From Liolophura sinensis (Eukaryota; Mollusca; Polyplacophora; Chitonida; Chitonidae): 64,000 bases of DNA. Shown in pieces: positions 8,901 to 52,000 of this stretch. Under the pieces are notes generated by a model. It did no database searches, was not told the DNA's origin, and saw nothing but the letters and a program-made list of their open reading frames with translations. A program made the position numbers and the translations under genes. Location: the NCBI RefSeq assembly GCF_032854445.1, contig NC_088300.1, positions 43,085,682 through 43,149,681 on the forward strand. The letters run 5' to 3'. Within the stretch, counting starts at the first letter, position 1. Each line of letters opens with the position of its first letter.

Positions 8901-10396
8901 TCTGCAAATTACTGACTACATTTCATCCATTTGTGAGACAAATCACTTTATTTACCGATCAAACCAGTTAAGGCAACAGGCCATTTGAGAAACCCACTGA
9001 TGTACTCTCATGTGACCTGACAGCGTTTAAATCTGGCTAGAGGGAATCGTTCAGACATTCTCTGCACGGGGTCCCTACTAGAAGAGACAAACGCCTGGCT
9101 GTTTGAAGCCAGAGGTCTACGATTTTGGTACCAAATGGCCTTAGGCAAATGTGACCCAAGGAACTTTATAATAATTAATATAAGAACATAAATATCTTAT
9201 TTCATTCTCCATTCCATTTCATAGAATTTTTCTCTTCTGGTTTATTAGATTAGGTGATAATCTTAATTCTGCAGTTGAAGCGAAAGGAAATCAGTTTACA
9301 CAAACTCTGTCCAACTAGAAAACACTGGCATTGAAACGTCTGTACGGCATTTTTATATTTTCAACCCCTGAATACATCTCCTATCTGATTTAGCAATCTA
9401 GATGGTCGCCCATTCCTAATTATCAAAGCATCCAAAAAGGCTGTCAATAACAAAGTCAAGTGGGTATGTATGTAACCCTTCAGCTAGCGCCGTGTACATG
9501 GAGTTGTACGTGGAAACGGAAATAAATATCTCGTCATCTGGAAACTGGTGAAGAAATAAATCTGGTGTAAATTACCGCTGGTCAAGCCGAACCTAATGGT
9601 ATCAGCGCGTGGGGCGAGTTTAACCGGCGATGGTGTCAATCTGGCCGGCTGTGTTAATCCCGTTTGTGGCTGCTGGGTTCTCACGACAGACAACATAAGT
9701 GGATTGCCAACCCACCTGCGTTCACTGGTAACTACATCAAAGCGCGAAGTCTGTGCGGCCTGAGGTGTGTAGATGACCACATTGTCAACAGCTAAACCTC
9801 TTCATCAACAACTGGCTCTTTGATCAGGTCTCAGTACTAATTGCCCTCATTTCAAGCTCCCCCAACCTTGGTCATTTCAAATATCCGAACTGAGATATAA
9901 TCAGTTTTCTCACCATTTGCTTATGAATAATCCGGCTTGGATATAATGTTGTAAAGGGATGTTGTAGTACGTGGACAAAAAACAGGATTCTACAATCCTC
10001 TTGTTACTTTTTCTTCTGTTGGCTCCCACTTAATAGCTCGCTGCATTTAAATTGCTTTGTAAAAAATCGTTGAACAATAACTCTTGCTTTAGGCCGATGA
10101 CACACGTTAAGCGATTACCGGATATCAGGATGTTTTTCTTTTGGCTTTAAGGCACCGCTTGTGTCGGCGTCTGGTTGTTTAGGCGCACTTTAGTTAGTTC
10201 TAACCAACCGTTATGCCACTTGAACTGGTCAGAAGTCCTTTCCGAGGAAATGATCGCCCCACAAATCACAGAGTCTATCAAAGATCGGCTCAACAGGCTC
10301 TTGCATTAAGTCATTAACAGATCTAGATTGAGGATCAGGTGCTTGGCTGGTTTCCGAGATAGCGGGCAGTCAGGAGACCAGCCTCTGCCAGTGGAG
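4309..10396. other. Intergenic or 3' flank of the peptide gene
   Basis: Apart from the TA tract at 5913 no repeat or gene is recognised. A GC-richer minus-strand open segment at 9576-9791 may be exon or 3' UTR of the peptide gene (see findings). The first minus-strand AATAAA below the stop at 10397 that I noticed is at 9246-9241. Confidence 0.5.
5913..5957. repeat. (TA)n microsatellite
   Basis: Uninterrupted TA dinucleotides for 45 bp. Confidence 0.98.
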
Positions 10397-10530
10397 TTAT
10401 CGTCCGGCTGCCATCAGCCGGCGCAGATCTGCCATGGACAGCCGAATGGACATGCGCTGTGGACCTGTTCTATTTCGAGCTCGGTCCAATGTGGTTGTTA
10501 TTGCATCCATGTTGTCAAGCCCAGCTATAC
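10397..10530 (-). CDS. Secreted peptide gene, proposed terminal exon
   Basis: A strong acceptor (TTTCCAATTGTTTCAG) precedes GTATAG at 10530. The frame reads two bases plus 43 codons to TAA at 10399-10397. The product is rich in Arg, Met and Leu with no low-complexity bias (GPQRMSIRLSMADLRRL) and ends Gly-Arg-stop. The coding capacity is too short for ORF scanners. Acceptor strength and the amidation-type ending argue that it is real. Confidence 0.55.
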
Positions 10531-13500
10531 CTGAAACAATTGGAAATGGACACGATATGAAAGTGTAAAATAAGAAACAATAAGTCAGACTTACGTTAAT
10601 CTTTAAAAGTTTAATAATCTAATGAGATCAGCTTGGTTCCGGTTTTCCGGACGTGAGACCGCCATTGCCTGTAGCCCATTAGCCCTACTCTATGGTTTTA
10701 AAATAGTGCTCGATTTATAGACCGTTCGCCTGAAGCTTTTGTATCCATGTTCAATCTGGAAACATATCCCAACGCCCTTAATTTCCGCCATATTAGGGAA
10801 AATGTATTCCTAATAAGTAAAGTATTTTGCAGTGACATTCGATGACGGATGTGACGTTCGGAGGCTACCATTACATGCGTCACTGGTAAATAGACCGGAA
10901 AGTTCGGATTTTAATACAAACCTAAAAGTTGAACGAGAGTTAGACTAAAAGAATGTCAGATCACACACAATGAAAATACCAGTATTTGTGTCTTGTTTTC
11001 AATACAGGTGACATAAAATTTTTACAGAAATCCATGTTGAATTTTCAAAAGTTTATTCTGAGGATGTGTTCCAAGAACAGATTAAAATTCGTCGGTCTCT
11101 AATTGCAGCCGCTCCCGCGAATGTATACATAGGTAAGTTAACGCTAAGAAAACAAATTATTATGAATCAGTATGAAACAGTACTTTAGACGTTTCTTAAC
11201 GGTTTTGTTCACAGATAAACTCACCGGAAATTGATTGGTGATTGATGTTTTAGATTATTGACCAAGTATTTCCTGGGTCAAATTCTTGATGTGTATAACA
11301 AATGATGTGCGCAAATACCTCCATATCCTGATTTTCACACGTGGGTTACAGACAACAAGCCAAATTTTAATCATAGCGATCCCACAAAATGACATAAAAA
11401 TATGTTTTTACCAAATGAAAAAAAAACACTATTCCTATGAGTATCAGAATATATTCATTAGCGTACAACATGTCAGTTTTGTGAAACATTTTCAGGAAGA
11501 GATTTTCTCGCATTTGAGATATTGGTTTGCAGCGTACCAACTCACAAAATATTTTACAGGTGTAAATGTAAATTACATTTTGCTATTAGAAATCACCCAA
11601 AGGTTAAAAGCCAAGGAAAGGCAACACATTATGTCTGAGCCACGTGTGTCGCGGGACATCGCTTAAGGAAAGCAGGTAGTTGAAATCAAAATCGAAAACG
11701 TCCTATGAAATCACATACACTAAGAGGTTTTAACAAAAGAGCGATATCACACCATAAACATAAGTAGGTAACTCTGATGTCCAAGTGCGCTACACATCAA
11801 TCGCATATTACTGGGCTTTGCGAAGTTACGTGGTAAAACTATTACTAGATTTGCCATCTCATGTGATTGAGAGGCACATTACCAGGTAGACACTTGTGCT
11901 CACATTTGATTGGGTGTTACGAAGATACATGGAAAAGGTTTTGCCAGATGCACATTTTATGATCACATGTGATTGGGCGTCGTGAAACTGGGTGATGAGC
12001 ATGTTACCTAATGGGCACATTGAGGTCACACACGATATGGTGACATAAAATTTCGTGGTACAGATGTTACCAGATGGACACTTTGTGGTCACACGACTGG
12101 TTGTCAAACAAAACGGTAAAGAAATCACTTGACCTTTATGCGGAATGGCAACACCGTGTGCGACTTACTCAAATCTTACTCAGGGCTTCCAGAAACTTGT
12201 TTTAAGTATATATACATTTAACAGTCTTTGCTTTACTTAATCACTCCTGCACGTCAGAATCGTACACTATTGAGAGTCGTAACACATCTTCTACGGTGTT
12301 AAAATTTTCAGTACATTCACTTCCTTGTTGTCTGTCATACAGGTCTTTGATAATCAGCATTTAAAACTCAATGAATGGCCTGACTTGCAACATAACGTCT
12401 TAAAGGTTTATAAAACACACACGGATGGTAACTTTCATTTAGCACACTGAGCAGGATAGAATACAGGATGCACTCGATTTTAAATGTATAGAAAAAGTTT
12501 GTTCTCATAGTTCGGCAGAGCAAAGAAACTTGTCCTTTGAGTTTTTTTTCAACCGTAGTTAATGACACTTTCCTACGCTCTATGGATGTGTGGTAGGTAA
12601 AAGTCAAACACTAAGCTTACACTAAGTGGCTTCTGAGCGCCATATTGATCCCCAGGGTATATTTCTTACATTGTAAGTGTTGCTATATTATAATTTATTC
12701 AGTAGTTCCCTCGCTACTGATTCAAAGAAGAAATATGTATAATGTATCGAGTAAGTAGTACAGAAGTAAACAACGGTTTGTTTGTTAGAGTGTTTGGTCA
12801 TATAGACGCATTAACCGGCATAAGAGTCTATATGTATGCCCAGTAAACGAGATCAGGCAAGTGATCAATGAGTGACACTAAAACAAAACAAAAAAAAATA
12901 CAATACCATGTAGAGGCCTTCAAAAAAGCCGACATAGGAGTAACTCCAGCAATTAGAACATATATCTTAATAGTGTGGATATATTTTCGGTTTATGGAAT
13001 GTGTTGTAACGTAGTATGCGGCTATACAATATTAGCATTTGCTTTCATTCATAAAGACTAGGATTGTTGAATATAGCGTATTCTGTTATTTTTTCCCATA
13101 TGTTTCTATATTTAAGTCCGTGCTAAAGACTATTTTACGTTTACGATTTTGGTCAGGTTTGGAGGAAAGGAAGTCTTGTAGAGCCCACGTTGGCAGGTAC
13201 ATGTAGCTGAAAAAACCAAAGCCAATGAAAAGAAAGCTTCGATCTTGTTCACAATCTCATACGTCAAGGGCTGATCATCATCTGAGAGCTCCCCCGCCAT
13301 ACACTATTAGAGGACCCGGTACAGCTAGATTAGCGGATGAAAATTTCCACTCGAAAGAAGAGAAACATTATTGGATGATTTTTTCCTTCTCGAGAGTAGC
13401 AATTTCGATCTTATAATCAAGATATGTTTTGTCATATAATAATGTAATTTCCATCTTATAATCAAGATATGTTTTGTCATATAATAATGTAATTTCCATC

Positions 13501-16500
13501 TTATAATCAAGATATATTTTGTCATATAATAATGTAATTTCCATCTTATAATCAAGATATGTTTTGTCATATAATAATGTAATTTCCATCTTATAATCAA
13601 GATATATTTTGTCATATAATAATGTAATTTCCACCTTATAATCAAGATATGTTTTGTTATATTATAATGTAATTTCCATCTTATAATCAAGAAATATTTT
13701 GTCATATAATAATGTAATTTCCATCTTATAATCAAGATATGTTTTGTTATATAATAATGTACACCAGGTATACATACCCGAGAGTCAATAGGCACACGAA
13801 AAAGGAAGCACAGTGGAAACACTTTGCAGTTATACTAACATTTCCAACATAAAATAGATATTACAGCGCACAAAAGAGTAAATATGCCGAAACGGGAAGT
13901 ACTGTTCTGACGTGAAACTTTTAAACTTTCAGTGAACTTAAACAAGAATGTAAGGAAATATTTAAAGTAACTTCGTTGGCATGGTATCTAACGTGAATCC
14001 TAGATGTCCTCTATGTTTGATTTAATGCTAGTAACTTCGTGGGACAGTTTTTCACGGTTTCATTTGAGAGTGAAGAAGAGGGAGACTGGTTTTGGACAAT
14101 TCCCGCAGTAACTGTGAACTTAAATTTCTTCAATTCCAGTTGAGACTGTGAAATCTTCCCAAGGAAAAGAAGCAGTTGACCGCGGTGCGATCAAAGCTGA
14201 TAAATGCCGTGGTTTTGTTCACATCCTACATAGCGTGGGATACCGTTTCCTATCACGTTTTTTTTACACAGGTTTTTGTAGACGTTTTACGGGAATATGA
14301 AATCTGGAGCTACTTGAGCAATAAAGCAGCCATGTGGGCACATGGATCCTTCATAAATGTTGACATATGGACGTGGCCACAATAAAGCGGATAAGCTATT
14401 GTTCTACTACGTGTATGACGTTTTATGCAAACTCTGTGGGCCTATAGCTATGCAACCTGGACGAACGGGCAATAACATTAACACCAGCACTAGTATCAAA
14501 ATCCAAATTCGTTTGATTGTAAATGGCGCATATCCAAGCAGCCTCAGCCACAATCAAACGTCTGCCGCTCTAAAGTGTTGTTAATGGCCCGTTGCAAACA
14601 TCATGAAAGCTTCCGCCAGACAATGGCTACTGCGGGAATCTCTGGTTAAAGTAGCATTTTATTGGACCGAGAAAATAGTTAACGTTGTTTTCAAACTCTG
14701 CGAGTGATATTTCTTTCACGAGAATGAAATTTTAACCAAGACATGTGAAGTTTGATCTTTTCAACTCAAATGCACCTATTCAGTATATGCGGTATATGTG
14801 AGCATATTCCTGACAGGTGGCTGATAAAGTATTTATAGGTTTGGTGGCCACGACAGGAAATCTCACAAAAGATACACCACAGGCGGATATCGGTGAAGAT
14901 CAGAGGAACTCCCCACATAATGTAATATTTAACCACAAATATATTCCCCACCTCAGACGAATGGCATTTGTGACAAAGCTTATTGTTCCATTGCTCAGAA
15001 GTGGACGAAACCTGCTGGTATGATCATTGAATGGAAGTGAACATTTGTAGCCAACAGGTTTTCTTATGAAATGCTTCAACCATTCAGTTTTTTTTATAAA
15101 TCTACATTAAATAGCCTTAATGGCAAGAATGCGTGTACAAGTTTCACCCCTAGCATGATTCCTTAATAACCCTTCTCTGTTTGGGAAGTAGTTTCTAAGA
15201 TGTTATTTGACGGATTACCGCAAACTTTTAAAGCCCAAAAACAGAATATAATAGCTCTTTTCGTGCTATTTACAATAATCCTTCCCGCAGGGTGCTGGTT
15301 TTTCCTAAACTAATAATCACTTGATGGCTATTTCCGTATGCTTTCTAAAGCTGTTATATACGCCTGAACCATCTTTTACACGGGTCTTCAATATTGATAA
15401 TAGTAAAACATTCTTTCTATTTCCTGTAAACAGCCATGCGACAATCGGCTATTGACGACGCCCCTACACTTAACCTCTCCAAAGCAATCCATGCCAGGTC
15501 TCCTGTTGGAGATATTGACATTGCTGTCTAGCAAAGATGGATTGCACCGATGCAAAAGTTAATACAGATGGAATTCCCTGAGCGCTTTTTACCTGCAGGG
15601 CCACATTTTAAACACTACTTAATATGAACCAGTTTATATACGTATCCGCAACCAAGTCTGTAACATTATACAGGTAGACACCATACTAGTACATGTGCGT
15701 GGTTACCTTTACTGTTAGGAATAGACACCATACCATATAACACAAACAGGATTTCAATGGCCTCTGTCATTAGAGGTACACTAGTATAAGTTGGTGGTGG
15801 CCTTTACTGTTAGGAACAGACACCAAACTACATAACACAAACAGGATTTCAGTGGCCTCCGTCCTTAGAGGTACACTAGTATAAGTTGGTGGTGGCCTTT
15901 ACTGTTTGGAATAGACACCAAACTACATAACACATACATGATTTCAGTGGCCTCCGTCATTAGAGGTACACTAGTATAAGTTGGTGGTGGCCTTTACTGT
16001 TAGAAATGGACACCAAACTACATAACACATACATGATTTCAGTGGCCTCCGTCCTTAGAGGTACACTAGTATAAGTTGGTGGTGGCCTTTACCGTTAGGA
16101 ATGGACACCAAACTACATAACACATACATGATTTCAGTGGCCTCCGTCAGTAGAGGTACACTAGTTCAAGTGCGTGGTGGCCTTTACTGTTAAAAACAGA
16201 CACCTTATTACATAACACTTATAAAAGATGACAGTGGCCTTTGTCATTAGAGGTAGACACCACAATGCTTAACAGGTGTACAATATTGTAGCGGTTAATT
16301 CTAAGATCGACGTGTTAAATAACAGATGGGACCCATGCAGAACTTCATATAAAAGATGAGTCCAAAAACGTAGGTGTACGTGGCTGGTCCTGCTACAGCC
16401 TGAAATCGTGCCAGGTATTGCTATACAACAACATATAAAAAGCGGAGGAAAGAAATGATATAACAGGAAAAAAGAAAAAAACAGAAAACAAAAACTGCAG

Positions 16501-19500
16501 TGAAATTTACAAAGGATTTCCAGAGAAAAATCTACACATTTTCTTTAGCTAAAATCTAGCAGTGAAATATACTTACATCTTATGGAAAGCCATTACGATT
16601 TTACATTCTGTTCGGCACTATAGTCTGAACTAACTTGTACTTTATACATTCATTACTTATTGGTTAGATTTTGAAGGTACATATTTGTTAAGTTAATAAT
16701 AAAACATTTCACAGTCGATGGCACTCCATTATTTGGCAATGCTGTTGTCGCTCGTTTCATAAAAGTCAACAAACCAACTTAACCAAACTCAAAATTACTT
16801 CATGATGTAAGAAATAAAAAGTAGTTAGGCCTAGTTATTATTTCTTTCAATCTGCCAGGCTTTTTTGAAAGTGGATTTACAAAGCATTTCATCCAAATCC
16901 ATTGAAATTTGTTATTATTCATTGTCACATAGCAGAGTTTTCTTCGAACAGAACCTAAAAACAATGTAGTCATGCAGATGGCTGTATCAAATGTAATTTA
17001 TTTATTTAGTTTGGGCACTTGGATAAGTTTTAGCGAAAAAAGAAACTTGGCATAAACGACTGCATCTCTCGAGGTATCTGAGAACCCTCCTGGCCATGTT
17101 GAAGCCGACGCAGCGGGATGTTTCTTCGAACCTAACACCTTCAAGAGCAGTGCCTAGTATAGACGCTGTGCGATAACCCTTAAGCCCTTGGCTATCTGGA
17201 TCCTCAAATTAGTTTATTTTGAAATTAATTTAGAAAATAATTGCGTGTTTAAAATGAAATCTAATCCATTAAAACAGCAAATTCTGCATCTTCAGCCAGG
17301 AATCATCTACATGATGACAAAGATGTCAGTCCACCCTCCGACTGAATTAATATCCCATGGGACTGAGCCGTGAATAGAAATATAAGAAATTGAGAAAAGT
17401 TTCACTAACGCAGCTTTCAAATAATAGCTGATTTATCATCAATCTGGTCGCCACACTGAAATCTCTTTTATATATTTATGGCATGCACTGATAAATCGAT
17501 CTAAGAGGCTTGACTTGTTTCTTCCGTTCCTGTACATCGACTGGAAGAAACGAACAAGGCCAGAGTCACACAAGGTTCACTTCAAACCAGTTTGTCTTAT
17601 TCGAACAATACAAATCTATGTTTTTATACTGTAACTACCTAGAAATTATCACTAGATCAGTTTGAAATAAATGAAACTACCAGTAATGAATGCATGCAAT
17701 AAAGAATTTAATATTTATGGAAATGGTTCAAATTATCACTTTACTAATAAACCAGCATGATTAAGAACAGAAACAATTCTGATACTGCATATCCAATCGC
17801 GCGGAGGAAGCGTTTGCGTGCAAATTTCATGAGCAAATGATAAAACTAACTATAATAAAACTGTACTGTAATAATGAGTTGCTCAACACATTGACTGACT
17901 ACGTCTTTCGCAATTGTTTTTGGACATTTATTAAGCCCGTCATTTATTATGTGTATGATAAATATATATCACCATCAAAGCTTTGCACATGAAAATCTAT
18001 ATATCAGTAATGACACGTGAATGACATTCATGCCAATAACATTCGTTCGAGTCACTTTCATTCCCTAACTCGTAGCGCATCTGCATTATTAGTCCAATAT
18101 AGGCTTATCAAGCATACTATATTACTTGTTTGATTGTTGTTTATTGCATACTTTTCATTTATACGACGGTTGTAAGTTTATTGGGTGGAGAAACGTACAT
18201 CACCCGTGATAAAACCACTGACTTTAGGCAAGTCACTGACAGATTTTTTCACTTACAAATATGTACACTACATTGCTGGAAGACAAATGGTCTGCAAGAA
18301 ACGTTCGGCTACACAAACGATCACACGAGCGAAGTGGACTGTCAAGCATTCGGAATGTGCAGTATGGCGGATATAAGTATATAACATGAGAGTTTCAATT
18401 TCCGAGTGCTGAGCATTAAGCTGGTAAAGTCTGGGTGTGGTTTATATCTACAGATCCTTACTGAGTTATAGCTTCATGCGATTACAACAGACATGAATGG
18501 ATCGAATGCTTGCCGAGATGTAAATTAAAGAACTTAGCTGGTCACAAAGCCTGGGCACGTGTACAGTGTACTAATATAACGAATAATCATGGCTCAAATT
18601 CACTGAGGCAGAATTTTAGCCATCTCGTCGCGACATATCGTTTCTGTCAGATGTTAGCTACAAATGTTAGCGACATATTGACTTTACCAGAATGTGCCAT
18701 TCGTCATTTTTCTGACTAACAACAGTGTGTGTCACTTTTCAGCTGATCTAACCTTGTCAACGCACCATCAAGTACATATATAACCATGCTGAAATGTGTA
18801 AAAAACAAAATAGGCTACAATAATAGAATTTATAACAAAAACAAACATCGCTCATCATGTAAACCCCGATCAAAATGAGTTTAGTAGAATGCCTTTTTTG
18901 AGTAAAACTTAATTTCTACAAAAATCAGCAATCCTGTTGCCAAATTTAAAAAGGTATTTAATTGAAATTTAGTGACAACACCATGTGATTTTGTGAGTGG
19001 AATTCATTTGATACGTTGAACTATAAGTACTATATCAGTGTAGGTTTGTTTTCTTTTCATATCGACTGAAATCTGCCTCTTAAGTTATTTTAGCTTTTTG
19101 TGTAACTACCATTAAGGTTTATGATTAAATCCAAAATGTTGCACGGAATCAGAATTCATATATCTGCCATGAAGAAGTTACTCGTGACATGTACATGGTC
19201 AGTTTAGCTCCTGTACATCTTCTGTTGTACATTGCAGAAAATAAAAAAGCATCCTATGCAGGCTAACAAAATCATACGATGTCATGTAGTTTGCATGTAC
19301 TTAATCTTCGTTCAGAATTGATATTTTGAGTTGGTGTGTCCGTACGCAGAAAATTTCCATGGCGGCTTCTAAGGTATTGTTCGGACAATCAATGGTTAAA
19401 ATGTGCAAAATGTATTCATGAATCTAGGCGTCGTAACATTTGTATACCTATCGTAAACCATATAAACTGGACGTTCCAAACCAATAATTGCAAGATCAGT

Positions 19501-22267
19501 CACGTTTAAAACAAAGTTCGAAACAAACCACCATAGTGCTAACAAAGTTCTGGTAAGAAAAGTAAGAAATTAGGACGGAGTTATGTAAAAATAAGCAATC
19601 AAAGTCTTCAATGATAGTGTGTTGGCTCAAGAAATGTTCTAGACTCGCAAATAAAATCAATATCAAAATCATTGAAGTGGTCTTTCCCTAAAATGGATAG
19701 GGTCATTGCTCTTATTGTTAATACAGGTATTCTTATCTCAGGCAGTCTGTGTGCCAAACGGCAGCCATCAGTATCGCTTCATCTCCCTTGGCAGCGTATC
19801 TCAGTCGCGCTTTCATTGCAAATGTTCATTCCATTTACGTTTTCAAACAGCAAATCTCGATGCTAAGGTTCAAAGAAATATAGTGACGATGAAACAGGGT
19901 GGCAGAGATCTGGAATGTCTATATTCACAACAAGCAACTGAGATTAAAGGCGATTGATAGTCTACTGAGAGGAGATAGCGTCTAAATGAAGAAAATCAAG
20001 CTCATCATCGCTACATCTCCAACACCATTCTTGTGACGTTTCCAGTACTTTACATAAGCCTGTCACTCTTTGTTGCACATCACGGGCAAACCATTAAGGA
20101 ACTTACCACGGTTTCATTTTAGTATGACCCCGTGAAGGTTGGGTTAGCCCGGTGGTCAACTAAACCTTCATATACTTATTTATTTATTTGATTGGTGTTT
20201 TACGCTGTACTGAAAAATGTTTCACTTAAACGACGGCGGCCAGCATTATGGTGGAACCTTCATTCACTTGTAAACCAGAGCAATCATCAGATTTAAAAAC
20301 TTCAACAGTTTACAGTATAAGATAATCAACTATGCAGTTCCTAACTATGATAGAACTGAAAACTTACAAGAGCACAGGTGTGGCATACTGGCCGTGATGA
20401 TTGTCATATTTGGGATCTGTTCAAAGGTTTCATTTTGCATCAACTGGTCTTGTGATTATCGTGTTGTCCACTCTACTTACTTTTAAGACACGTGAGGCAC
20501 GTAAACTTGAAAAAACCTTATTTAACTGTACTGATGCCCAAAAAGCACGGCGACGTAATACCGAAGAGACTGGTTGCCGTGCTGTTTGAATAGACGTTTT
20601 AATAAAGGACCCCTTTACTTTGTATACATTTTGGAAGTGAACAATCAAGCTAAGTGAGAAGTGTCATTTGAAAATTTCGTACATGCAGAAAATCTGTCTC
20701 AGTTACGAAGCATACATTTTCACGTTTAAACTCAAATCCTGTCAACCTCCCAGCTATCTCGGTTTTCTCTAGAAACTAACTCATAACCTGCTAACTACAT
20801 AAAAATCACTGTAGCCACGACCATTTTTCAGCTTTACTGTATTTCCTGCAGGAAAGTATATTATATAATCTCGCGCACCTGTTTTTCTGTAAATGTAATC
20901 TACAGGCGTCTTTTTGGGACAAGGGAAAGGTGCAATGTGGCGATTAGGACAGCCCGATAACGAAATAAAAGCCACTATGAGGTGTTTTTTCTTAATTATT
21001 TCTGTCAAGCCTGAGATCGCAATTTCAAAAAAGTCTCTGGCCCTAGAAGAACCCATCTTCGTCGTAATAATTGGATTAAATATCACTTCCCGTAGAAGTA
21101 ATGGTATGTGTTACTTAGAGAGTGCGTCTCTTGAGAGGCAGGCAAACCGAGCATTTCTTCTCTGACACTCACGTGTAAACAGGGGAAATAGAGAGAAAAC
21201 TGTTTCCTTCTACAATGATAGGATTTTCAAAACATTTTTCTGACAAAAACGTTACCACTTCATTTCATTTCAGGTATCCTATGATATTTGAGAGAGTTCG
21301 TTGGCCTCAACCCATTCCTTGTTTTCTCCGTTGTATTATTTCACCAGGTTAGAGTATTAATTTATGTAGCAAACATGATGGATAGGCTGCTCCTTTGTCT
21401 ACTCAGCTAGTTACAGTATTCCTCGCATTCCTAATTTTCAGGTGCATTGAACCCTGCTGGAGGCAATCAGTGAAGAAATTAGCACTTAACCAGTATGTTC
21501 ATCAATGCTCCTTCGTACATTAGGTGAGTTAGTGATGTGGTATGTGAAACCCTAGCTAGTCCACTACATCTGGCTTTATAACGTCCACGGGGAGAGGCAC
21601 ATGATATACTCACCTATCCTTTTAAACAGTGACGAAGCCCCAGAAACTGAAAAACGAAGACAACGCATCGTCAATTTTTTTCTATCAAACATAACAAGTA
21701 TACTCTCAGTAAACAGCTTATATTCTTGTCACATGGACAACGGCGAAAATGATTCCATTTGAAAACAAATATATCAAATACCACGATGCGATAAGCCCAT
21801 GTTTTTTGAAAGTAAGCATGTAAGCAAGTAAAACTTTTGTCAAGTTTCAAGGCATATTCAAGTTTTGACATATTCAAGTTTGCAGGACATATTCAAGTTT
21901 GCAGGACATATTCAAGGAGAAAAAGGATTGTTTTGCCTCTTTTGTACCTAGGTGGGACGTTTGTGAACGTTGATAAATGTATTTCCGATTTATGCAGACT
22001 TCCATGCCGTAAAGCTTCAAAATTCTCAGGAATAAAATGGTAATTGACAACATGAAAGAAGAACTTACCTCTGAGTTGGTCCAAACGTCGAATCCGTGCA
22101 CGTAATAATGAACTAAACAGTGAGTTTATAAGAGGGAATGGTTGACGTTGCGCCTCTGCTCCTGCCGGGGACCAGTTAGCCGTACCACGGGGAAATGCAC
22201 ATGACAAGGTGAAGCACAAAACTACTGTGAGGGAGAAAAATTTGCACGAGTGCTGGCAGGACATCAT
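10397..22267 (-). CDS. Small secreted peptide precursor, neuropeptide-like, two exons proposed
   Basis: Proposed CDS is complement(10397..10530, 22069..22267), 333 bp, 110 residues. Residues 1-24 form a signal peptide (hydrophobic FFSLTVVLCFTL, likely cleavage after SCA). R58-I-R-R61 is a furin-type site. Residues 62-108 then end in Gly109-Arg110 and stop, the usual signal for C-terminal amidation, predicting a 47-residue amidated peptide ending RRLMAA-NH2. Sequons are at N31 and N86. The first exon ends in phase 1 and the second begins in phase 1. The C-terminus (RRLMAA-GR-stop) recalls CRF (RKLMEII-GK-stop), and the AIT...ADLR pattern recalls molluscan egg-laying hormone; both comparisons are by eye. 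Extra exons between the two may exist. Each exon is good alone; the join is inferred from phase only. Confidence 0.55.
11775..12115. repeat. Diverged tandem repeat, about 63 bp, 5 units
   Basis: Recurring ACCAGATGGACACTTTGTGGT-type block and ACATGTGATTGGG block at about 62-64 bp spacing (near 11881, 11943, 12006 and 12070). Old and diverged. Confidence 0.75.
13401..13760. repeat. 45 bp minisatellite, 8 units
   Basis: 360 bp, exactly eight units of the type AATTTCCATCTTATAATCAA...ATAATAATGT. Most units alternate GATATG and GATATA or GAAATA variants, giving a 90 bp higher-order period. Because 45 is a multiple of three, the array creates an open minus-strand frame of 15-residue repeats that is probably not a gene. 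Confidence 0.95.
15672..16270. repeat. 95 bp minisatellite, about 6 units
   Basis: Units start near GACACCAAACTACATAACAC and include GTGGTGGCCTTTACTGTTAG. Starts at about 15722, 15817, 15912, 16007, 16102 and 16197 keep an exact 95 bp spacing. The outer units are more diverged. Confidence 0.93.
20172..20262 (-). mobile_element. Meta-tail SINE 3' fragment
   Basis: TATTTATTTATTTGATTGGT at the low end, then ACGACGGCGGCCAGCATTAT. A tail-only copy on the minus strand. Confidence 0.8.
21850..21917. repeat. Short 19 bp tandem repeat
   Basis: GACATATTCAAGTTTGCAG repeated about three and a half times, in the proposed intron just downstream of the signal-peptide exon. Confidence 0.85.
22069..22267 (-). 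CDS. Secreted peptide gene, signal-peptide exon
   Basis: ATG at 22267 lies in AAAAATGATG context (A at -3). It codes 66 residues plus one base and stops at a perfect donor (AGAG then GTAAGT, donor bases 22068-22067). It encodes a clear signal peptide followed by a Pro/Ala-rich spacer and PLINSLFSSLLRARIRRL, an amphipathic-looking, arginine-rich helix. Composition is more GC-rich and codon-like than the flanks. Whatever the second exon is, this looks like the first coding exon of a secreted protein. Confidence 0.75.
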
Positions 22268-22630
22268 TTTTCTTCTCCTGGAAGCGAAAGAAGAGACTGG
22301 AGTTTTAGTTCTGTCCCGGTGATAAGGATATCAGGAGGCAGAGTGAAGTTAACACCTTGCGCTAGTAAAAATCATCATAACGCATATCTATAAGGTAGGC
22401 CGCAATACGCTGGTGTGAGCGACCAGGGAAGCTGTATTACTAGAGGTGACGGAGGTAATCTAGTCCCGCGATAAACTCGCTCAAGACAAAAGTATATCTG
22501 GCTGGATACTCTACAAGCGGGGCAAATACAGGCTTCGACTAATGGTTTGCTTCCTTACAAAGTCATATTCGGCTCCGACGTCGAAGCTCAATAAAAACAC
22601 ATCCAGATCAACTTAAAGAGAGAAGACTTG
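22268..22630 (-). other. Probable 5' UTR of the secreted peptide gene
   Basis: Lies between the predicted start site and the ATG at 22267. GC content is higher than in the surrounding DNA. No upstream protein-coding sequence is recognised. Confidence 0.35.
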
Positions 22631-32424: not shown

Positions 32425-33945
32425 AAGTATGAGATGTACCCAGACATGCCTAAACTGCCCGTTATACATCTTACTGTATAATCTAGATCGCTGTGCCTGT
32501 TGTATGTCATGATGTATAACCTAGGTTAACTGTACAATCTGAGGTATAACATAGACCCAGGAGTACCGAAAACACTTGTTGTGTGCCTTGGGGTATAAAA
32601 CCATAGACCCAGGAGTACTGAAAACACTTGTTGTATGCCTTGGGATGTAAAACCATAGACCCAGGAGTACCGAAAACACTTGTTGTATGCCTTGTGGTAT
32701 AAAACCATAGATCCACGTAAACTGAAACCACCTGGTGTATGCATTGAGGTATAAAGCCAAAGGCTCATATGTACCGTAAACACTTCCTGTATGCCTTGGG
32801 GTATAAAACAATAGACCAAGGTGTACCGAAAACATGTGTTGTATGCCTTGGGGTATAAAATCAGACTCATGTAAACTGAAACCACCTGATGTATGCAGTG
32901 AGGTATAAAACCAAAGACCCAGTTGTACCGAAAACACCTGTTGTGTGCCTTGGGGTATAAACCATAGTCGCAGGTAAACTGAAACCACCTGGTGTATGAC
33001 TTGTGGTATTAAACCATAGACCCAGGTGTACCGAAAACATTTGTGGTATGCCTTCGGATATGAAACCATAGTCCCAGGTGTACCGAAAACACGTGTTGTA
33101 CAGCCAGAGATACAACCTTCACCCAGGTTTATAGGAACTGCCTGTTGTATATCTTCAGGTATAACTTTTAGACATACATGTACTAAAATTACCCATTGTA
33201 CGGCTTGAGGTATAATCTAGACCCGGTTGTGCTTGTTTACGTCTTCATGTATAACCATATAGACTCAAGTGTGCCAAAATTACTCGTGTTTCTTCTCGAG
33301 GTATCACCTAGTCACAGGTGTACCGGAATTACTTGTTGTAAACCTAGAGGTAAAAACTACAACCAGATGTGCGTGTCCCGGAACTACCTATTGTATGCCT
33401 TGGGTATAAGACCACAGACCCAGGTGAACCGATCCACTTGGAGAATGACCTACCCCCAGGTTTATGGGAACCACCTGTTGTTCATACTGAGGTAAATGTA
33501 TAGCTTGTAGACCTAAGTGTACCAAACTGACCCGTTCTATGTCCAGAGATATAACTAGGACAAAGGTATAGAAACTACCTGGTGTACATCTTAGCATGTA
33601 CGTAGATGTTGAAAATCTACATCTAGGACCTCCGTGGCCAAGGTGGTTAGCGTACCTGGGCAGCGCAATGACCCAGGAGTCTCTTACCAAAGCGGTCACA
33701 TTGAGTTCAAGTCCATGTCATGCCGGCTTGGGAAAGTCTTCCAACAACCTGCGGATAGTCGGGGATTTACCCCGGGCTCTGTCCGGTTTCCTCCCACCTC
33801 AATGCTGGTTGTCGTTGTATAAGTAAAATATTCTTAAACACGGCGTAAAACGCCAATCAAATAAATAAAATCTACACATTGAGGTATAATCTAAACACAG
33901 CAGGTGTGCTGAAATTATGTTGCATATCATGGATCACAATCCCAT
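32425..33945. repeat. 53 bp minisatellite, more than 20 units, interrupted by a SINE
   Basis: Units of about 52-53 bp containing GGTATAAAACCATAGACCCA and CCGAAAACACTTGTTGTATG. The best-conserved units are at 32540-33110, with older, more variable units to 33600 and a last piece after the SINE at 33870-33945. Long minus-strand open frames here are by-products. Confidence 0.9.
33622..33866 (+). mobile_element. tRNA-headed Meta-tail SINE, full length, inserted in a minisatellite
   Basis: A complete copy from a tRNA-like head (CTCCGTGGCCAAGGTGGTTAG, GAGTTCAAGTCC) to the AATAAATAAA tail. The 10 bp duplication AAAATCTACA stands at 33612-33621 and 33867-33876. The interrupted 53 bp minisatellite resumes right after it. 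Confidence 0.9.
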
Positions 33946-39429: not shown

Positions 39430-39840
39430 AAGTTAAAGAGGTAGGGTGGACTCCAAAGAAATACTGGAGATTCCTGTCTGATGGTGTGGTTACCGGGAAT
39501 GGAGTTCGTGTACTAAGGATACTGGGGCTAGTCAGTCTTTGACGTTGGCAGATGTGTACATTCTGATGAAACCAATAGTCATGTTTTGATTCGGGGTATT
39601 ATTGGAAAGCTTATGCCTGTTCCATGGTGTAGTAACTGTTGGGATTGTTAATACTTTGTCTGTGGAAGGTATTTCCTGGGTAATGACTTAGACGGAGATA
39701 AAGTTAAGGGGTGCCCTCATGTCTGTGTTCCGGATTGGACGGAAATATAAAAGACCTACAGGAGTAGTTTTCAGGTATATTTCCCTCTTGTGTAGTTACC
39801 AGGTCACAGAAAAGAGCTAGGGACAAGGAAGACAATTTTT
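39430..39840 (+). pseudogene. Retrotransposon aspartic protease remnant
   Basis: The active-site tetrapeptide D-T-G-A is at 39518-39529 in the context KDTGASQSLTLADVY, typical of retroelement pepsin-like proteases. The frame is lost before and after it. It sits between gag and integrase. Confidence 0.75.
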
Positions 39841-39875
39841 CTGTTACCATTGGGAAGTCAGCGGGTAATATTATT

Positions 39876-40830
39876 TTGGCTGAAACTTTCTCTTATGGTA
39901 TTGATGATGTAGAACATGGTCGGGAGTTAGACAGACCTGTGTTCACTCGATTTGATGTGGTTAAACCGCAGTCAGATCCCGAGTTAAGGGAATTAAGTAA
40001 ATCCGCTTTATCTGTGGAGGAAATAGCTGATGTACTAGTTGGTTATTACATAGAGGATGAACTGTTGAGAAGAAAGTATAGAGCCCCGTATGTGTCAGCT
40101 AACGATGATTGGGCAATTTTTAATCAAGTTGTCTTGCCTGTAAGTTACAGACAGGAAATACTTAGGATGGCCAATGAGATTTCAATAGGTCCATTTAGGG
40201 ATTAGAAAGACAGAAAGTAAAATTACTCGCCATTTTTAGCGGTCTAAGATTCACAAGGATGTGGTTAATTTCTGTAAGACATGTAAGACAAACACCTGTC
40301 AGCTGGTAGGAAAACCACAGCATAGAGTAAAACTTGCACCACTAATTACAATTCCTGCTTTTGGTGAACCTTTCAGTAAGGTACTTATTTATTTTGTTGA
40401 TCCAGAACTATGTCAGGATACAGAGATCTTTTGATTATTATGGGTACAGCTACTGGATTTCCGGAAGCTTTCTCACTGAAACAGATAACTACTCCTCAGA
40501 CCGCTCATATTTTGTTACAGTTTTTCACCAGGTATGGTTTACCTAAGGGAATATAATCTGACCAGGGGTCAAATTTTTATGTCAGGCTTATTGCAGAAAG
40601 TTATGTATCAGCTGGGAATTAAGCAGCTTAAATCCACAGCTTATAACCCTCAATCCCAAGGGGCTTTGGAAAGACAGCACCAAATCATGAAGAGTGCGCT
40701 ACAAGCATATAGTATGGAATACCCTGAAGATTGGGACAAAGGGATCCCATTTGTGTTGTTTGCCACAAAGGATACTCCTAATAAGTCCACTGAGTTCAGT
40801 CATGAGGCTAGAGGTCCTTTAGCTTTAGAG
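39876..40830 (+). pseudogene. Retrotransposon integrase remnant
   Basis: It begins with the linker and H2C2 zinc-binding region (about 39960-40310; NFCKTC and TCQLVGKPQH visible), followed by the catalytic core. The position of the first catalytic Asp reads Tyr (KVLIYFVDP); the second is kept (SDQGSNF) just after a stop; the third, Glu, is kept in GALERQHQ. The C-terminal domain is missing: the core runs directly into mid-reverse-transcriptase sequence near 40825. Confidence 0.82.
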
Positions 40831-41730
40831 CTTTTCAGTTTCGTGTCACACCGTTTGGCATGAAAAATAGTGCGGCGACGTTTCAGAGCTTAACCAATAA
40901 GATTGTAGAAGTTCTGTACTTCTCTGCAGCCTATATAGACCACATTCTTATTGTGAGTGATACGTGGACGACCATTGCAAACATCTGAAAAATATTCTCT
41001 AGATTGTCTTTATTAGATTTAGTAATTAATCTTAGGAAGACAGAGGTTGCCAAAGGACGAGAGACATACCTTAGTTATGAGGTTGTCGGTGGACAGGTAG
41101 TCCCTCGTTCAACTAAAGTCCAGGCCATAGTGGATTTACCAGTGCCTACTTGTAAGAAAGACATTCTAGAGTGCTTGGAGTGTGTGGTTTTGAGTGCAAG
41201 TATATACCGAATTTCAGCGATGTTGCTGCTCCACTGACTCAGTTACTTAAAACAAATTCCAGGTTTAATGATCGGACAGTTGTCAGTCAGCTTTTGATAC
41301 ATTAAAGACCATTCTATCTAGCCCTTCTATTTTGAAGGATCCAAATTTTCGCCGTCCTTTTAAGATGTCAGTAGACGGTAGTGACATCGGAGTTGAAACT
41401 GTTTTGCTCCAGGAAGGAGAGGATGGGATGGAACAGCCTGTGAATTACTACTCAAGGAAGTTAAATAAACAGCAAAAACAATTATTCCACCATAGAGAAG
41501 GAGGCATTGGGCTTAGGGCTGGCTATACAGCATTTCGAAGTGTAGTTGACCAGTTGTTCTGGTCATGTCACTGTGTTTACTGATCACAAGCTTTTGGTGT
41601 TCTTGGAGAAGTTTAAGAACAAAAATCAGAGATTATTACGATGATGTTTGACCTTACAGCCTTATGCTCTGAAATTGTATATATTGCTGGTAAGGATAGC
41701 ATTATGGCTGACATGCTTACCAAAGCTTGA
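40831..41730 (+). pseudogene. Retrotransposon reverse transcriptase and RNase H remnant
   Basis: It starts inside the palm at FRVTPFGMKNSAATFQ, so the finger/palm part with the first catalytic Asp is deleted. The catalytic YxDD box reads Y-I-D-H. After a frameshift come the thumb/connection (NLRKTEVAKGRETYL; DLPVPTCKKDI) and RNase H (SVDGSDIG, NYYSRKLNKQQKQ, TDHKLLVFLEKFKNKNQ), ending ADMLTKA-stop at 41728-41730, about 150 bp before the polypurine tract. RNase H is thus the last domain of pol. Confidence 0.82.
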
Positions 41731-45834: not shown

Positions 45835-46071
45835 TCAGAAGGACTGACGAGCATGTAGAAGTGCCAGAGAAGCGGCGTGCTCTCTTGCTTTAAGCTGAAG
45901 ACTTGTCCTCGTCGTACCCTCCATGTCGTCATTGATGGTTGGTGCAAGAAGCTCGTAGGCCTGTAGGGGTAATGTCGGCGGTGGTAGATGAGGCACGAAA
46001 CTCGGGGTCACTCCACCTGCACCGAAACTCGGATAAGTACCCAGGTAGCCACCGTACAGACCTCCGGATAT
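45835..46071 (-). CDS. Homeobox gene terminal coding exon (OAR-like motif, stop)
   Basis: Encodes residues 220-297 and the TGA stop at 45837-45835. The acceptor is CTTTTCCAG before ATATCC, phase 0, compatible with exon 3. The N-terminal half is rich in Gly, Tyr and Pro ([17 protein letters not shown]). Near the end, [14 protein letters not shown] resembles the OAR motif (consensus around SLRLKAKEHS) that closes many PRD-class proteins. The exon lies 7.7 kb from exon 3, so a simple ORF scan would not link it. The OAR match and phase are the reason for joining it. Confidence 0.88.
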   Translation of the reverse strand: MSGGLYGGYLGTYPSFGAGGVTPSFVPHLPPPTLPLQAYELLAPTINDDMEGTTRTSLQLKAREHAASLALLHARQSF

Positions 46072-49000
46072 CTGGAAAAGAAGTCATACAAACGAAGCCA
46101 ATTATGAATAATTAACTAGAACCTGCTCTTGTTCCGTCTCCATGTCCTCCGAAAGACTTGTACTGGGCGAGTGGTCACAGACTTCAACCGCATCGCCTCA
46201 AAAGACTAGGCACATGAAAGGCACTTCCTATTGGAGTGCAAAGACAGGTTGAGAGATGCCGCGGACCTGGTGAGACCAGTCCAATTAACAAAGCCCTTAC
46301 CACGCGTCAAACATGAGCACAAGATCAACGCCTCCATCCCGGGTCTTCCAGTGTACTCAGGCTAATAGTGACTTCTCATTAGAGGCAAACTAGTGAACAA
46401 TGACTATAGAACAGTCCCTGAACAACCTATAGCGGGCTGTTATTAACCGGAAGTCCGGGTGGAAATCTTCAGAGGGCATGATCAGAGCTTACAGTACAGC
46501 TCGGTACTATTTTCACAGATATATATTGTAACTCTAAACCATCGGCAAATCGGTGGCAGTTGGAATCCTATCTACTGAAGTTTGTCTATTGAAAGAGGAC
46601 GACCATTAGAGATTTCATGTCTATTGTTACTGTACATAACAATAATATTTATTTATTTATTTGATTGGTGTTTTACGACATACTCACGAATATTTCAGTT
46701 ATACGACGGCGGCCAGCATTATGGTGGGTGGAAACCGGGCAGAGCCCGGGGGAAACCCACGACCATCTGCAGGTTGCTGACAGACCTTCCCACGGACGAC
46801 GTAACAATAATATAATTTCCTGGAATTAACTATTATGCTATGTTTTGGAATCAATATTCTTCACATACAACTCACACTGAGGTCTTACATCGCTGTTTAA
46901 CGCCATCTTCAAGTTTTCACTTATCCGAAGGCTGTCAGTTTTATGGATGGAGGGCCATGCACTGAGTCCGGCAAAACCAGCGACCGTTGGAAATTTACTG
47001 ACGAACTTTCCCACATATATATGTGTACTTGCGGTTTTACGTCGTAACTTTCCCATGTGTGACGTACAGAAATGCACGCCATAGACTGATGGAAGACAAA
47101 TGGTCTTCAGCGAATGATAGACTGCACAAATGACAACTAGGGGCCTCCGAAGCCGAAGTGGTTAACGTGCGATGGCGGCATAATGGCCCTGGAGCCTCTC
47201 ACCAATGCTGTCGCTCATGCTGGCTTTCTCACCGATCGTATGTGGGGAGGTCTGAAATAACCCGCGGACCGTCGTGGGTTTCCCCGGGGCTCTGGCCGGT
47301 TTCACCCCACCATAATGCTGGTCGCCGTCGTATAAGTAAAATATTCTTGAGCACAAAACACAAGCTCTACACATGGATATGTTGACAGCTGATTTTCTTG
47401 CAAAGCGAAACCCGTTACCTAAACTGTCTCCAGTTTTACTCTAAACTATGTTTCTGACACTGCTGCATTTGAAATTGTTCACACGTTTTAGTACAATATA
47501 ACCGTAAAATAGATTTTATCTAATTTAAGGAAATATGATCTCACGGCAGTATGGTTTTAGAGTTGAAAGTTAGGATATTCGGTTATAAAAAGCAATGGAG
47601 TGTTATCTAACCCCCGTGTTTGCGTTAATGAGTTATTGGTGTCGAAACCGAGCTTATGAAGTTTAACACGAAGAATTAGAAAACGTATTCTGAGTCCAGT
47701 TTCTTTTCAATAATGTAAACGTCGCTGACTACAAGCAATTCTGGACTGATTTTACAGGCAGCTGAATATAGGCAAGTGACTAAAAGAATTTTGAACTAAA
47801 GCTGGAACTGAACAGATAGGGGGCGAATTCTGTCTGGGCTGGTAATAAGATTTTAAAAGGTGGTATTATCGAGTTAGAATTACTATCTACGAATGGTTTT
47901 CGTGAATATAACACATAATGCACCGTTTGTATAATTATATCTGTGCGGTCAAAAATGTTAAACAGACGAACAGCGAATTCTCTGAGTAAGCCTGCAGTGA
48001 CACCAAGGTGTAAACAACTGGAAAACGAGGTATACAAATGTGCCGTAGGGGGCAATGACCTTTAAACAGATGGAGGAAGAATTTTATAGGTATGTCTGTG
48101 ATCTAAATGGCACGAAATCATTTTCTTGCATACACAGTGATAGTGCTTAGGAATACAATACTTTCTACGCATTGTTAACTGGCTAGCCTTCCGTGAGAAC
48201 GTAGTACCTGTAAGAGAATATCGGACTCTACGTATCGTCTAAGGTACGCTGACGGATAACTTGCCGATGGCGATCGGTCTGTTTAATTTCGCAATGTTGA
48301 CAAATTGTGCGCGATTTCCCCAGAAAGTATCGAATACGACTCTGGCTAGTCAGATAGGTTTCCGTACGTGGTGAATGTTGACCTAGTAGCGCCGGGCTGG
48401 ATAACCTCTCCCGCCGGTGGCTAAGCAGAGTTCTTGTGAGAATCCCGAAATGGACATCGATCAATTTGTACTGGGTATCATCCGATAATTCCAAATGTAA
48501 TTGACGTAAGAAGATAAAAAGAATCCGTTTTCGGGGCTTGGCTTATGTTCAGTTCACATCTTACGATAACTCGGGTAGCCTGTGGCACGCCCGGCGAATG
48601 CGGGGGTTGGAAAGCGGCAGGTGTACATCGGGTTGTAAAATTTCGGGTACTCGTGACGGCAAAACCATAATACCTCAGGATAGATTGTTTCGGTGTAACA
48701 GCATTCCCATGGTTGGGGAGTATATGCACCTTCAACAGATGTTCTGTTGTTGAAAATCGCATCGCGGAATCAAAAGACTTAAATTCAGTGCTTTGTTCAT
48801 TGGCAGCTGTTTTTGGTTTACAATGTTTAAATTTTCTATTTCACTAGTTTATTTATCTACATGTGAAGGATTAACAAAGGTGTCCGAGGATATGCCTACA
48901 CTCCACCACCGACAGAAACCAAATGTGTCCAAGGGTACCTTTAATCCCCACAAACAAATAACAGATGTCAGAGGGTGCACAAACAGATAACAAAGGTGTC

Positions 49001-52000
49001 AGATGGTGCACAAACAGATAACAAAGATGTCAGAGGGTGCACAAACAGATAACAAAGATGTCAGAGGGTGCACAAACAAATAACAAAGGTGTCCCAGGTG
49101 TCTTATGCGCCCACATCACCGAATATTAAAGATGTCCGCATGTCTTAAACGCCCGGACCAACAAATAAGGAAGAAGAGCGAGGCTGTCTGTACAGCCACA
49201 TTAACGGATAACAAAGCGGTCAGAGAACGCCTATGCGCCTCCACCAACGGATAACCTGATGCCCGACGGTGCCTGTGCCCCCCCCCCCCCCCCCCCACAA
49301 CATATAACAAAGGTGTCCGAGGATGCCTATCATGCCAAACAACAGAAGGTGTCCGAGAGTGTCTATATGCCTCCACCACCAGATAGCACAGATGTTTTGG
49401 GATGCCTGCATACCCCTACAAGCATATTACAAGATGTCCGAGGTTGCCTATACGCCCTCACCAAAAGAAACAAAAATGTTCAGGGATGCTTATACTCCCC
49501 ACTTCCCCTAGGCTGTGTCCGGTTTCCTCCCACCATAATGCTGGCCGCCGTCGTATAAGTGAAATATTCTTGAGTACAGCGTATAACACTAATCAAATAA
49601 ATAAACAAATTTACTTAACACAAACAGATAAGAAAGATGTCTGAGGGTGACTCACCAACAGGTAATAAAGGTGTATGAAGACGTCTATACACCTCTACCA
49701 GCAGATAACAATACGTTCTGCCAACAGAAAAGAAAGGTGCGCGCCCTCAACATATAAAAAGGAGTCAGAAGGTACCTTTAAGTCTCCACAAACAGATAAC
49801 AAAAATGCCCGACGGTGCCTATACGACTACGCAGATAACACAGGTGTACGAAAGGATCAGTATGTTCCGCAAACAGATAACAACAGTTTCCGAGGGTGCC
49901 TATACGGGCACACAAATAACAAAGGTGTACGAAGGGATCAGTAAGCCCCGCAAACAGATGAGAAAAGTGTCCGAGGGTGCCTATACGTCTACACAGATAA
50001 CAAAAGTGTACGAGGGCATCTGTACGCCCCGCAAACAGATGACAAAAGTGTCCGAGAGTGCCTATACGTCTACACAGATAACAAAAGTGTACGAGGGCAT
50101 CTGTATGCCCCGCAAACAGATGACAAAAGTGTCCGATGGTGTCTATACGACCACACAGATAACAAAGGTATACGAAGGGATCTGTATGCCCTGCAAACAG
50201 ATGACAAAAGTGTCCGAGGGTGCCTATACGGGCACAGAGATAACACAGGTGTACGAAGGGATCTGTATTCCCCGCAAACAGATGACAAAAGTGTCCGAGG
50301 GTGCCTATACGATCACAGAGATAACAAAAGTGTACAAGGATGCATGCACAGCCCCACTAAGGGATAGCTAAGCTGTTCGAGTGTGACTATATTAACTCAC
50401 CAAAGGATAACTAGGCTATTCTAGGGTAGCTATATCCTTTAATTTAACGATAGCCATTGTCCTAGATAGCAATGGTTCCAAAGGATAAGAAAACTTCTCA
50501 AAAGGTTAGCTATCTCTGGGCGTGGGAGTACAAATATTATCGGTCAGCTTTGTTCTCTATTGGCGTGGGAGTATAGGCCCCATTGTGTGGCGGGCAAAAT
50601 TACCATTTAATCGCAAGTATCGATAAGAGTAAAAAAATTCTCACGATCCAGGAATATATATCGATATCAATAATTCTTGATCGAAAGTTAATTCCCCAGA
50701 TGAGTACTTGGTGTGGGAATATCGGTACTCCCTACGCAGCTTATTTATCCCTGGGTGGTCTTCTCTGGGTAATTGACGACAGCGTATTTGAAAAAAAAAA
50801 CAATAACAAAAAAACTGACGTAATCAACAGAAGGAGGAGTAAAACCATTCATCATAAACATATCATAACTGACCAGATACATCGCTATCGGCTGGCTGTC
50901 GAATATATTCATTGCTGGGAAAGACTAACGGTTAATGGCATCTTTTCTCAGTAGATTGGTTAAATATGTACTTAGCGGCCACCTTGTTCAGTTCTCACAG
51001 AAATGCAGACACTTAACCCTATACAAAATCTTCACCTCATTTGTACCGAATAGCAGCCACAAACCTATACCCTTTCATACAGCAAAGTGAAGGTTTCCAG
51101 CGATTATCACAGTATCTTGATAACTGGAAATGTTATGTGTAGGCCTACAGGTTTCTGTCAGACTGATGTTAGAGGTGCATTAAAATTAAAAAAAGACTTC
51201 AAAAATAGCTGCTACGTTTGGAAAAATAACAGGTAGCTCCAGCGACTTTGATTAATCCAATCCTTGTGTTTTAATGTGAACCAGAGAACGACATACCTGG
51301 GCAAACGTATGTGCAATGTATTCTAAAAATCAAAAAAGAGAATGAATTATTTCTGAACAAAAAAATTAAGTCACAATTACTGCTCTAGTAATATCCGTAG
51401 ATTACAATTTTTTTCTTTTTGCTAACTAACTAAATAAATACACAACTCAAAGTAGAGACAAATAATGGTATCGTGCATCCGTTTTCTTAATTCAGTACCA
51501 TACATATGCTAAATCTACTTGATAATTTAAAAACATTTTATATAAATATGTTTCAAATTTTATACCTATGCGCATTGAAAAATTGCACCTATCTTTCAAT
51601 AGCATGCAAGCCATGTAACGGGTGTTTAGCAAGTCCACAGCTTAGTTGACGGCAACTCATTTAACCTCCAAGAGTTGTTTCCCTTATACCAGCTACAGTG
51701 CATAAACAACATAAAACTTAAATGTATCATTGCCACCATCTTTTAAAACTACTGCTGCTGGAAGTGAGCACAAAGCATTTTGTCACGTTGGTAACCTACA
51801 CTGAAGTGGATAGTATTCCTGGGCCAAAAAGTTTCTTTTCTTCCAAACAGCCAAAACTCTTAAATATTTACAATTTGTACAGAAATAATTGTGCAGAAAT
51901 TTAGGGTGTCTAACAACGGAGCAACGTCTCAAGCAGTGCCCCAACACTTGTCTCAGGATAATCTTGATTACAAGTTTTTGTATTGCGCATGTGTAGCCTA

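Follow-up and report, generated by a model that had tools for sequence, protein, structure and literature searches.

The window analysed here is a 64-kb stretch of a chiton genome, C6:43,085,682-43,149,681. The assembly has 632 contigs with a total length of 609,464,459 bases and was first published as Liolophura japonica (PMC11068029), and an authors' correction changed the species name to L. sinensis (PMC12441733). A candidate gene is located on the minus strand of this window and comprises two coding pieces, at 22267-22069 and 10530-10397, which together span C6:43,096,078-43,107,948. The two pieces flank a proposed intron of 11,538 nt (10531-22068), which is predicted from their sequence signals. 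The GC content over the two exons is 49% and 55%, compared with 39% for the window. No Rfam family at gathering scores and no tRNA (ARAGORN) was detected in the window.

The coding part of exon 1 (22069-22267, minus strand), recognised by its reading frame, its donor and its single copy, consists of 66 codons and 1 nt. Its frame begins with the ATG at 22267 and remains open up to a GTAAGT donor in phase 1 (22063-22068, minus strand), with the boundary GAG/GTAAGT lying in frame at 22069/22068. Between 22267 and 21894, this GTAAGT is the only donor that scores above 2 bits. The N-terminal part of exon 1 forms a hydrophobic segment, FFSLTVVLCFTLSC, which satisfies a home-made signal-peptide rule based on the hydrophobic core and the -3/-1 residues. 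Cleavage after SCA appears plausible by eye, and the first site permitted by the rule script lies after residue 20. The remaining spacer ends with ...RARIRRLDQLR. A signal-peptide-like start followed by a GTAAGT donor was the first claim of an earlier note on this DNA, and both elements are present at the positions it gave. The same note described an upstream TATA box. An element does lie 120 nt before the ATG (22387-22392, minus strand), but it reads TATAGA and is a weak match. In the pattern scan, three upstream ATGs (22385, 22378 and 22375) were located at most 20 nt from TATAGA, with no further ATG between them and the start codon.

Exon 2 is preceded by a pyrimidine-rich 3´ splice region (10531-10588, minus strand), whose upstream end carries a branch-like CTGAC motif and which terminates in TTTCAG. 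The acceptor at 10531/10530 reads ...TTCCAATTGTTTCAG/G, and both sides of the proposed junction are in phase 1. The coding part of exon 2 (10397-10530, minus strand), identified by its frame, single copy and codon score, encodes GIAGLDNMDAITTTLDRARNRTGPQRMSIRLSMADLRRLMAAGR-stop; the codon of its first Gly is split across the intron, and the frame closes with Gly-Arg-stop at 10397. The acceptor, the matching phase and the Gly-Arg-stop ending that had been described for this exon are thus all observed. The nearest AATAAA/ATTAAA element 3´ of the stop lies approximately 1.15 kb away (9241-9246, minus strand).

The pairing of the two exons has competitors within the window. From the donor to the low end of the window, 27 acceptors score at least 4 bits, and five of these open phase-1 terminal frames of at least 30 codons. 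Exon 1 may genuinely open the gene of a secreted protein or peptide and yet be spliced elsewhere, either to one of the other four frames or to additional exons outside the window, in which case exon 2 would be a foreign exon or no exon at all. Against this reading, none of the four alternative frames ends with G[KR]-stop, and the highest score among the five belongs to the acceptor at 10530. Splicing of exon 1 to a different partner is unlikely in our assessment, and still deserves to be taken seriously.

Joining the two frames in phase reproduces the 110-residue product of the earlier note, with a signal-peptide-like start, an RIRR site and a C-terminal Gly-Arg-stop. The predicted basic cleavage site is RARIRR immediately before LDQLR, and the C-terminus ...LMAAGR-stop forms an amidation signal. 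The C-terminal part of the product would then yield a single predicted amidated peptide of 47 residues. The amphipathicity of this peptide did not exceed that of its shuffles.

The two-exon arrangement is rare. A pair was counted when a first exon with a signal-peptide-like start and a donor was combined with a terminal exon that opens at an acceptor and closes with G[KR]-stop; the two had to share strand and phase, with an intron shorter than 15 kb and a basic site. Exactly one pair was found on either strand of the 64-kb window, even at loose thresholds. Among 1000 windows simulated with a Markov-3 model, at least one pair occurred in six at loose thresholds and in none at mid or candidate-strict thresholds; in a smaller initial run, for which the signal-peptide rules differed slightly, the counts were 1/40, 0/40 and 0/40, respectively. 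Genuine sequence of this chromosome served as a further control, and its 260 kb (stretches of 40, 20 and 200 kb) contained no pair at any of the three settings. Because the splice matrices were approximate, the signal-peptide rule was home-made and the thresholds were picked with knowledge of the candidate, this rarity is strong but not decisive evidence that the arrangement is non-random and exceeds the chance expectation. The rarity is unevenly shared between the exons: the simulations yield 0.003 strict first exons like exon 1 per window, compared with 0.07 for exon 2, which also favours a genuine exon 1 with another splicing partner.

These counts also bear on the reading that neither piece is coding and that a strong GTAAGT after a hydrophobic open frame and a short open frame with a Gly-Arg end coincide by accident. 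This reading draws on the fact that the candidate was first picked by eye, and on codon usage. Codon log-odds were derived from 20 kinase exons of this genome, picked from 103 matches, and separated held-out coding pieces from stop-free control runs with an AUC of 0.97 for the whole codon signal and 0.86-0.89 for the synonymous signal alone; the control DNA was used without gene masking, and the coding controls were kinase pieces throughout. Of 1823 stop-free control runs, 1.7% reached the total score of exon 2 and 12.6% its synonymous-only score. The score of exon 1 was reached by 70% of 582 stop-free runs (52% for synonymous codons alone), and all 36 held-out kinase pieces scored above exon 1 on the full measure, a comparison in which signal peptides are atypical. 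Furthermore, exon 2 is overlapped on the plus strand by three frames that score 10.5, 9.8 and 9.3, compared with 8.4 for its own frame, and the plus strand over exon 1 (22152-22295) scores 12.9, among the best segments, while the exon's own frame is absent from the top 45 codon-scored segments. These higher-scoring opposite-strand frames suggest that base composition explains part of the codon signal. Exon 2 is weakly coding-like by codon usage, and exon 1 is not coding-like. The coincidence reading also draws on the lack of a Pfam family at E<=10 and of another genomic match for the peptide (see below). Set against the empty simulations at mid and matched stringency and the empty 260 kb of real DNA, we regard a chance origin of both pieces as distinctly unlikely.

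Both exons are single copy. Each exon with its flanks, searched against the whole 609-Mb genome at E<=10, matched only itself; the 47-residue peptide gave no other match at E<=10, and the whole 110-residue product matched only its two exons at E<=0.001. Since very frequent words are passed over in the genome search, a separate local blastn with a repeat control was performed over 324 kb. Apart from self-matches, neither exon with its flanks gave anything better than E=0.06, and the positive control, an interspersed repeat near 47.2 kb, had matches at E<=0.001 in 19 or more of the 27 records, counting its own. A transposon origin of either exon is ruled out by the single-copy searches and the local blastn. 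In viral contigs, 21 stretches matched a pattern, and tblastn identified no relative among them.

The earlier note had tentatively interpreted the product as a divergent relative of the CRF/DH44/ELH hormones and had proposed a profile comparison with these families. This comparison was run with Pfam, and hmmscan found no family at E<=10 for either the 110-residue product or the 47-residue peptide. The same library recognised all six family members used as controls: the CRF profile (PF00473) matched four of four CRF/DH44 controls at 1.1e-13 or better, and the ELH profile (PF02323) matched both ELH/CDCH controls at 2.9e-17 or better. The CRF and ELH profiles missed each other's members in this control test and could miss the candidate in the same way, so the absence of a profile match is compatible with a distant relative. 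A sequence search of the PDB returned a single match, yeast transaldolase, at a chance-level E=0.36.

Pairwise alignments gave no preference for the family. In Smith-Waterman comparisons against 2000 shuffles with 11 family members and 10 unrelated peptides, the best family members were sauvagine (p=0.032) and Aplysia ELH (p=0.042), and the other nine ranged from 0.17 to 0.82. Two of the ten unrelated peptides, galanin (p=0.019) and DH31 (p=0.021), scored better. The mature peptides of the CRF family start with an S-[IL]-x-[LV]...L-R block. In the candidate, RMSIRLSMADLRRLMA resembles this N-terminal block with a score reached by 1.9% of 20000 shuffles, and its SIxLxMxxLR pattern recalls the receptor-activating start of CRF peptides; however, the block occupies residues 31-46 of 47, which is the wrong end of the peptide. 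The score for the C-terminal CRF block was reached by 6.0% of 20000 shuffles. The AIT...ADLR spacing that had been likened to molluscan ELH is not shared, as it spans 24 residues in the candidate and 18 in Aplysia ELH. By Pfam, the PDB search, shuffled alignments and block PSSMs, the candidate resembles CRF/DH44/ELH peptides no better than it resembles unrelated peptides, and the proposed kinship is rejected on these measures.

A residual argument for a divergent family hormone comes from the genome itself. The chiton Acanthochitona crinita has been reported to possess a DH44 precursor with two ELH/DH44 motifs (PMC6425005), and no canonical DH44/ELH gene was identified in the present genome with PF00473, PF02323, locust DH44 and Aplysia ELH as queries, which are possibly too distant. 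PF00473 gave four matches across the genome, none of which reached the curated cut-off; the best of them (E=0.78) is interrupted by a stop. The single PF02323 match was a tandem repeat. The Aplysia ELH query gave one match, which contains a stop (E=1.95). The locust DH44 query pointed to a frame at C8:18393327-18393431 (E=3.4) that resembles a coiled coil and may contain a DH44 exon. Since these queries identified no occupant of the DH44 slot, the CRF reading retains a small probability. This reading is further weakened by the two motifs described for the A. crinita precursor, compared with at most one in the candidate. Taken with the local resemblances and the likeness to the N-terminal block on one side, and the misplaced block, the wrong spacing, the Pfam result and the better scores of DH31 and galanin on the other, membership in the CRF/DH44/ELH family is highly improbable.

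Taken together, the observed reading frames, the splice-site sequences and their phases, the single copy and the rare arrangement suggest that the locus is, on balance, a genuine two-exon gene, present once in the genome, for a small secreted-peptide precursor of no recognised family. The precursor is probably a neuropeptide precursor. The earlier description of a peptide-hormone-like gene with a long intron is therefore plausible and beats chance, but its assignment to the CRF/DH44/ELH family is unsupported. From these DNA signals we infer the transcription, splicing, cleavage and amidation of the candidate as well as its receptor. In the predicted pathway, the signal peptide would direct the precursor into the secretory pathway, and furin or a PC-type convertase would cut after RIRR. 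A carboxypeptidase and the amidating enzyme (PHM/PAL) would then convert ...LMAA-Gly-Arg into the 47-residue amidated peptide; a shorter peptide would result if internal R-sites, e.g. after GPQR, were also cut. The released peptide would signal through a receptor at the cell surface, probably a GPCR.

More tentatively, and with considerable doubt, the gene may be the first representative of a chiton (aculiferan) neuropeptide family that is unrelated in sequence to known families, with its signal-peptide and mature-peptide exons 11.5 kb apart and located beside a paired-class homeobox gene. According to a 2019 survey, chitons and four other classes of molluscs still awaited systematic studies of peptide signalling (PMC6425005), and no nervous tissue is among those listed as RNA sources for this assembly (PMC11068029). 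If verified, the orphan precursor would add one signalling peptide to the chiton repertoire and would indicate that peptide genes with long introns and short exons can escape annotation. At present, it constitutes a specific and cheaply testable gene prediction rather than a discovery, namely a candidate orphan peptide gene of a familiar kind.

The candidate was compared with its closest known systems. With the PDF/PDH/cerebrin peptides, it shares the spacer sequence LINSLFS, which resembles LINSLLS of Drosophila PDF (p=0.031). Unlike the motif of PDF, the LINSL of the candidate lies in the spacer, lacks flanking basic sites and is not amidated, and no Pfam match was found. Crab PDH (p=0.26) and Aplysia cerebrin (p=0.68) showed no comparable score, and kinship with PDF through LINSL, which reaches p=0.031 for just one of three peptides, was rejected. 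A literature search with C-terminal motifs of the candidate (ADLRRLM, LMAA-amide etc.) returned only titles on plant and rice peptides, oral antimicrobial peptides and a cancer study. With molluscan ELH and lophotrochozoan DH44/CRF, the candidate shares a long (predicted) amidated peptide and scattered AIT, ADLR and RL elements; it differs from them in the missing profile match, the spacing and a similarity at the level of unrelated peptides. It also differs from the two-motif DH44 precursor reported for A. crinita in having one peptide (PMC6425005). Unlike known neuropeptide precursors in general, the candidate matches no Pfam family at E<=10 and is known here from DNA alone. It shares with single-peptide metazoan neuropeptide precursors the order of (predicted) signal peptide, spacer, basic site, one C-terminal peptide and Gly-basic-stop. 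In the CCWamide/agatoxin-like precursors, the signal peptide and the mature peptide are reported to be encoded on different exons (PMC8557429), and the predicted chiton precursor is organised in the same manner.

The window also contains a paired-class homeobox gene of several exons on the minus strand (62462-45916). Its homeodomain, recognised with Pfam, is split near residue 46 between segments at 54761-55153 and 53672-53983 (minus). The nearest solved homeodomains are those of aristaless-like 4 and aristaless. The N-terminal exon is acidic and carries FSITNIL, which appears eh1-like by eye, and a possible C-terminal exon lies near 45916-46065 (minus). Judged by eye, the gene resembles Isx.

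Decayed pieces of an LTR retrotransposon occupy 39768-41583 on the plus strand, comprising an RNase H domain (41272-41583; Pfam RT_RNaseH_2) and a stretch that looks integrase-like by eye (40489-40863). An interspersed repeat, probably SINE-like, lies at 47101-47340 and in many further places; at E<=0.001 a copy turns up in 19 or more of the 27 local records, counting its own, and some frames within it give coding-like codon scores. There are also several long tandem arrays with 45-95 bp units (55450-56683, 49789-50339, 32550-33100, 15685-16255 and 13401-13761), and some of these are open in long frames.

Exon 1 of the candidate peptide precursor encodes LINSLFS in the spacer (22112-22132, minus). 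Drosophila PDF contains a similar segment, LINSLLS (p=0.031); this likeness is probably due to chance. Opposite exon 1, an open segment on the plus strand (22152-22295) reaches a codon score of 12.9 under kinase-exon training, above most of the window.

The earlier note had proposed a CRF/DH44/ELH relative. Searches of the whole genome with PF00473, PF02323, locust DH44 and Aplysia ELH found no convincing gene of these families; a match to locust DH44 within C8:18393050-18393650, on another contig, appears coiled-coil-like by eye. A DH44 precursor is on record for another chiton, Acanthochitona crinita (PMC6425005). In exon 2, MSIRLSMADLRRLM (10412-10453, minus), close to the C-terminus, has a CRF-block score that 1.9% of shuffles equalled or exceeded. 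It resembles the activation block found at the N-terminus of CRF peptides, and an amidation signal follows this CRF-like block nearly immediately.
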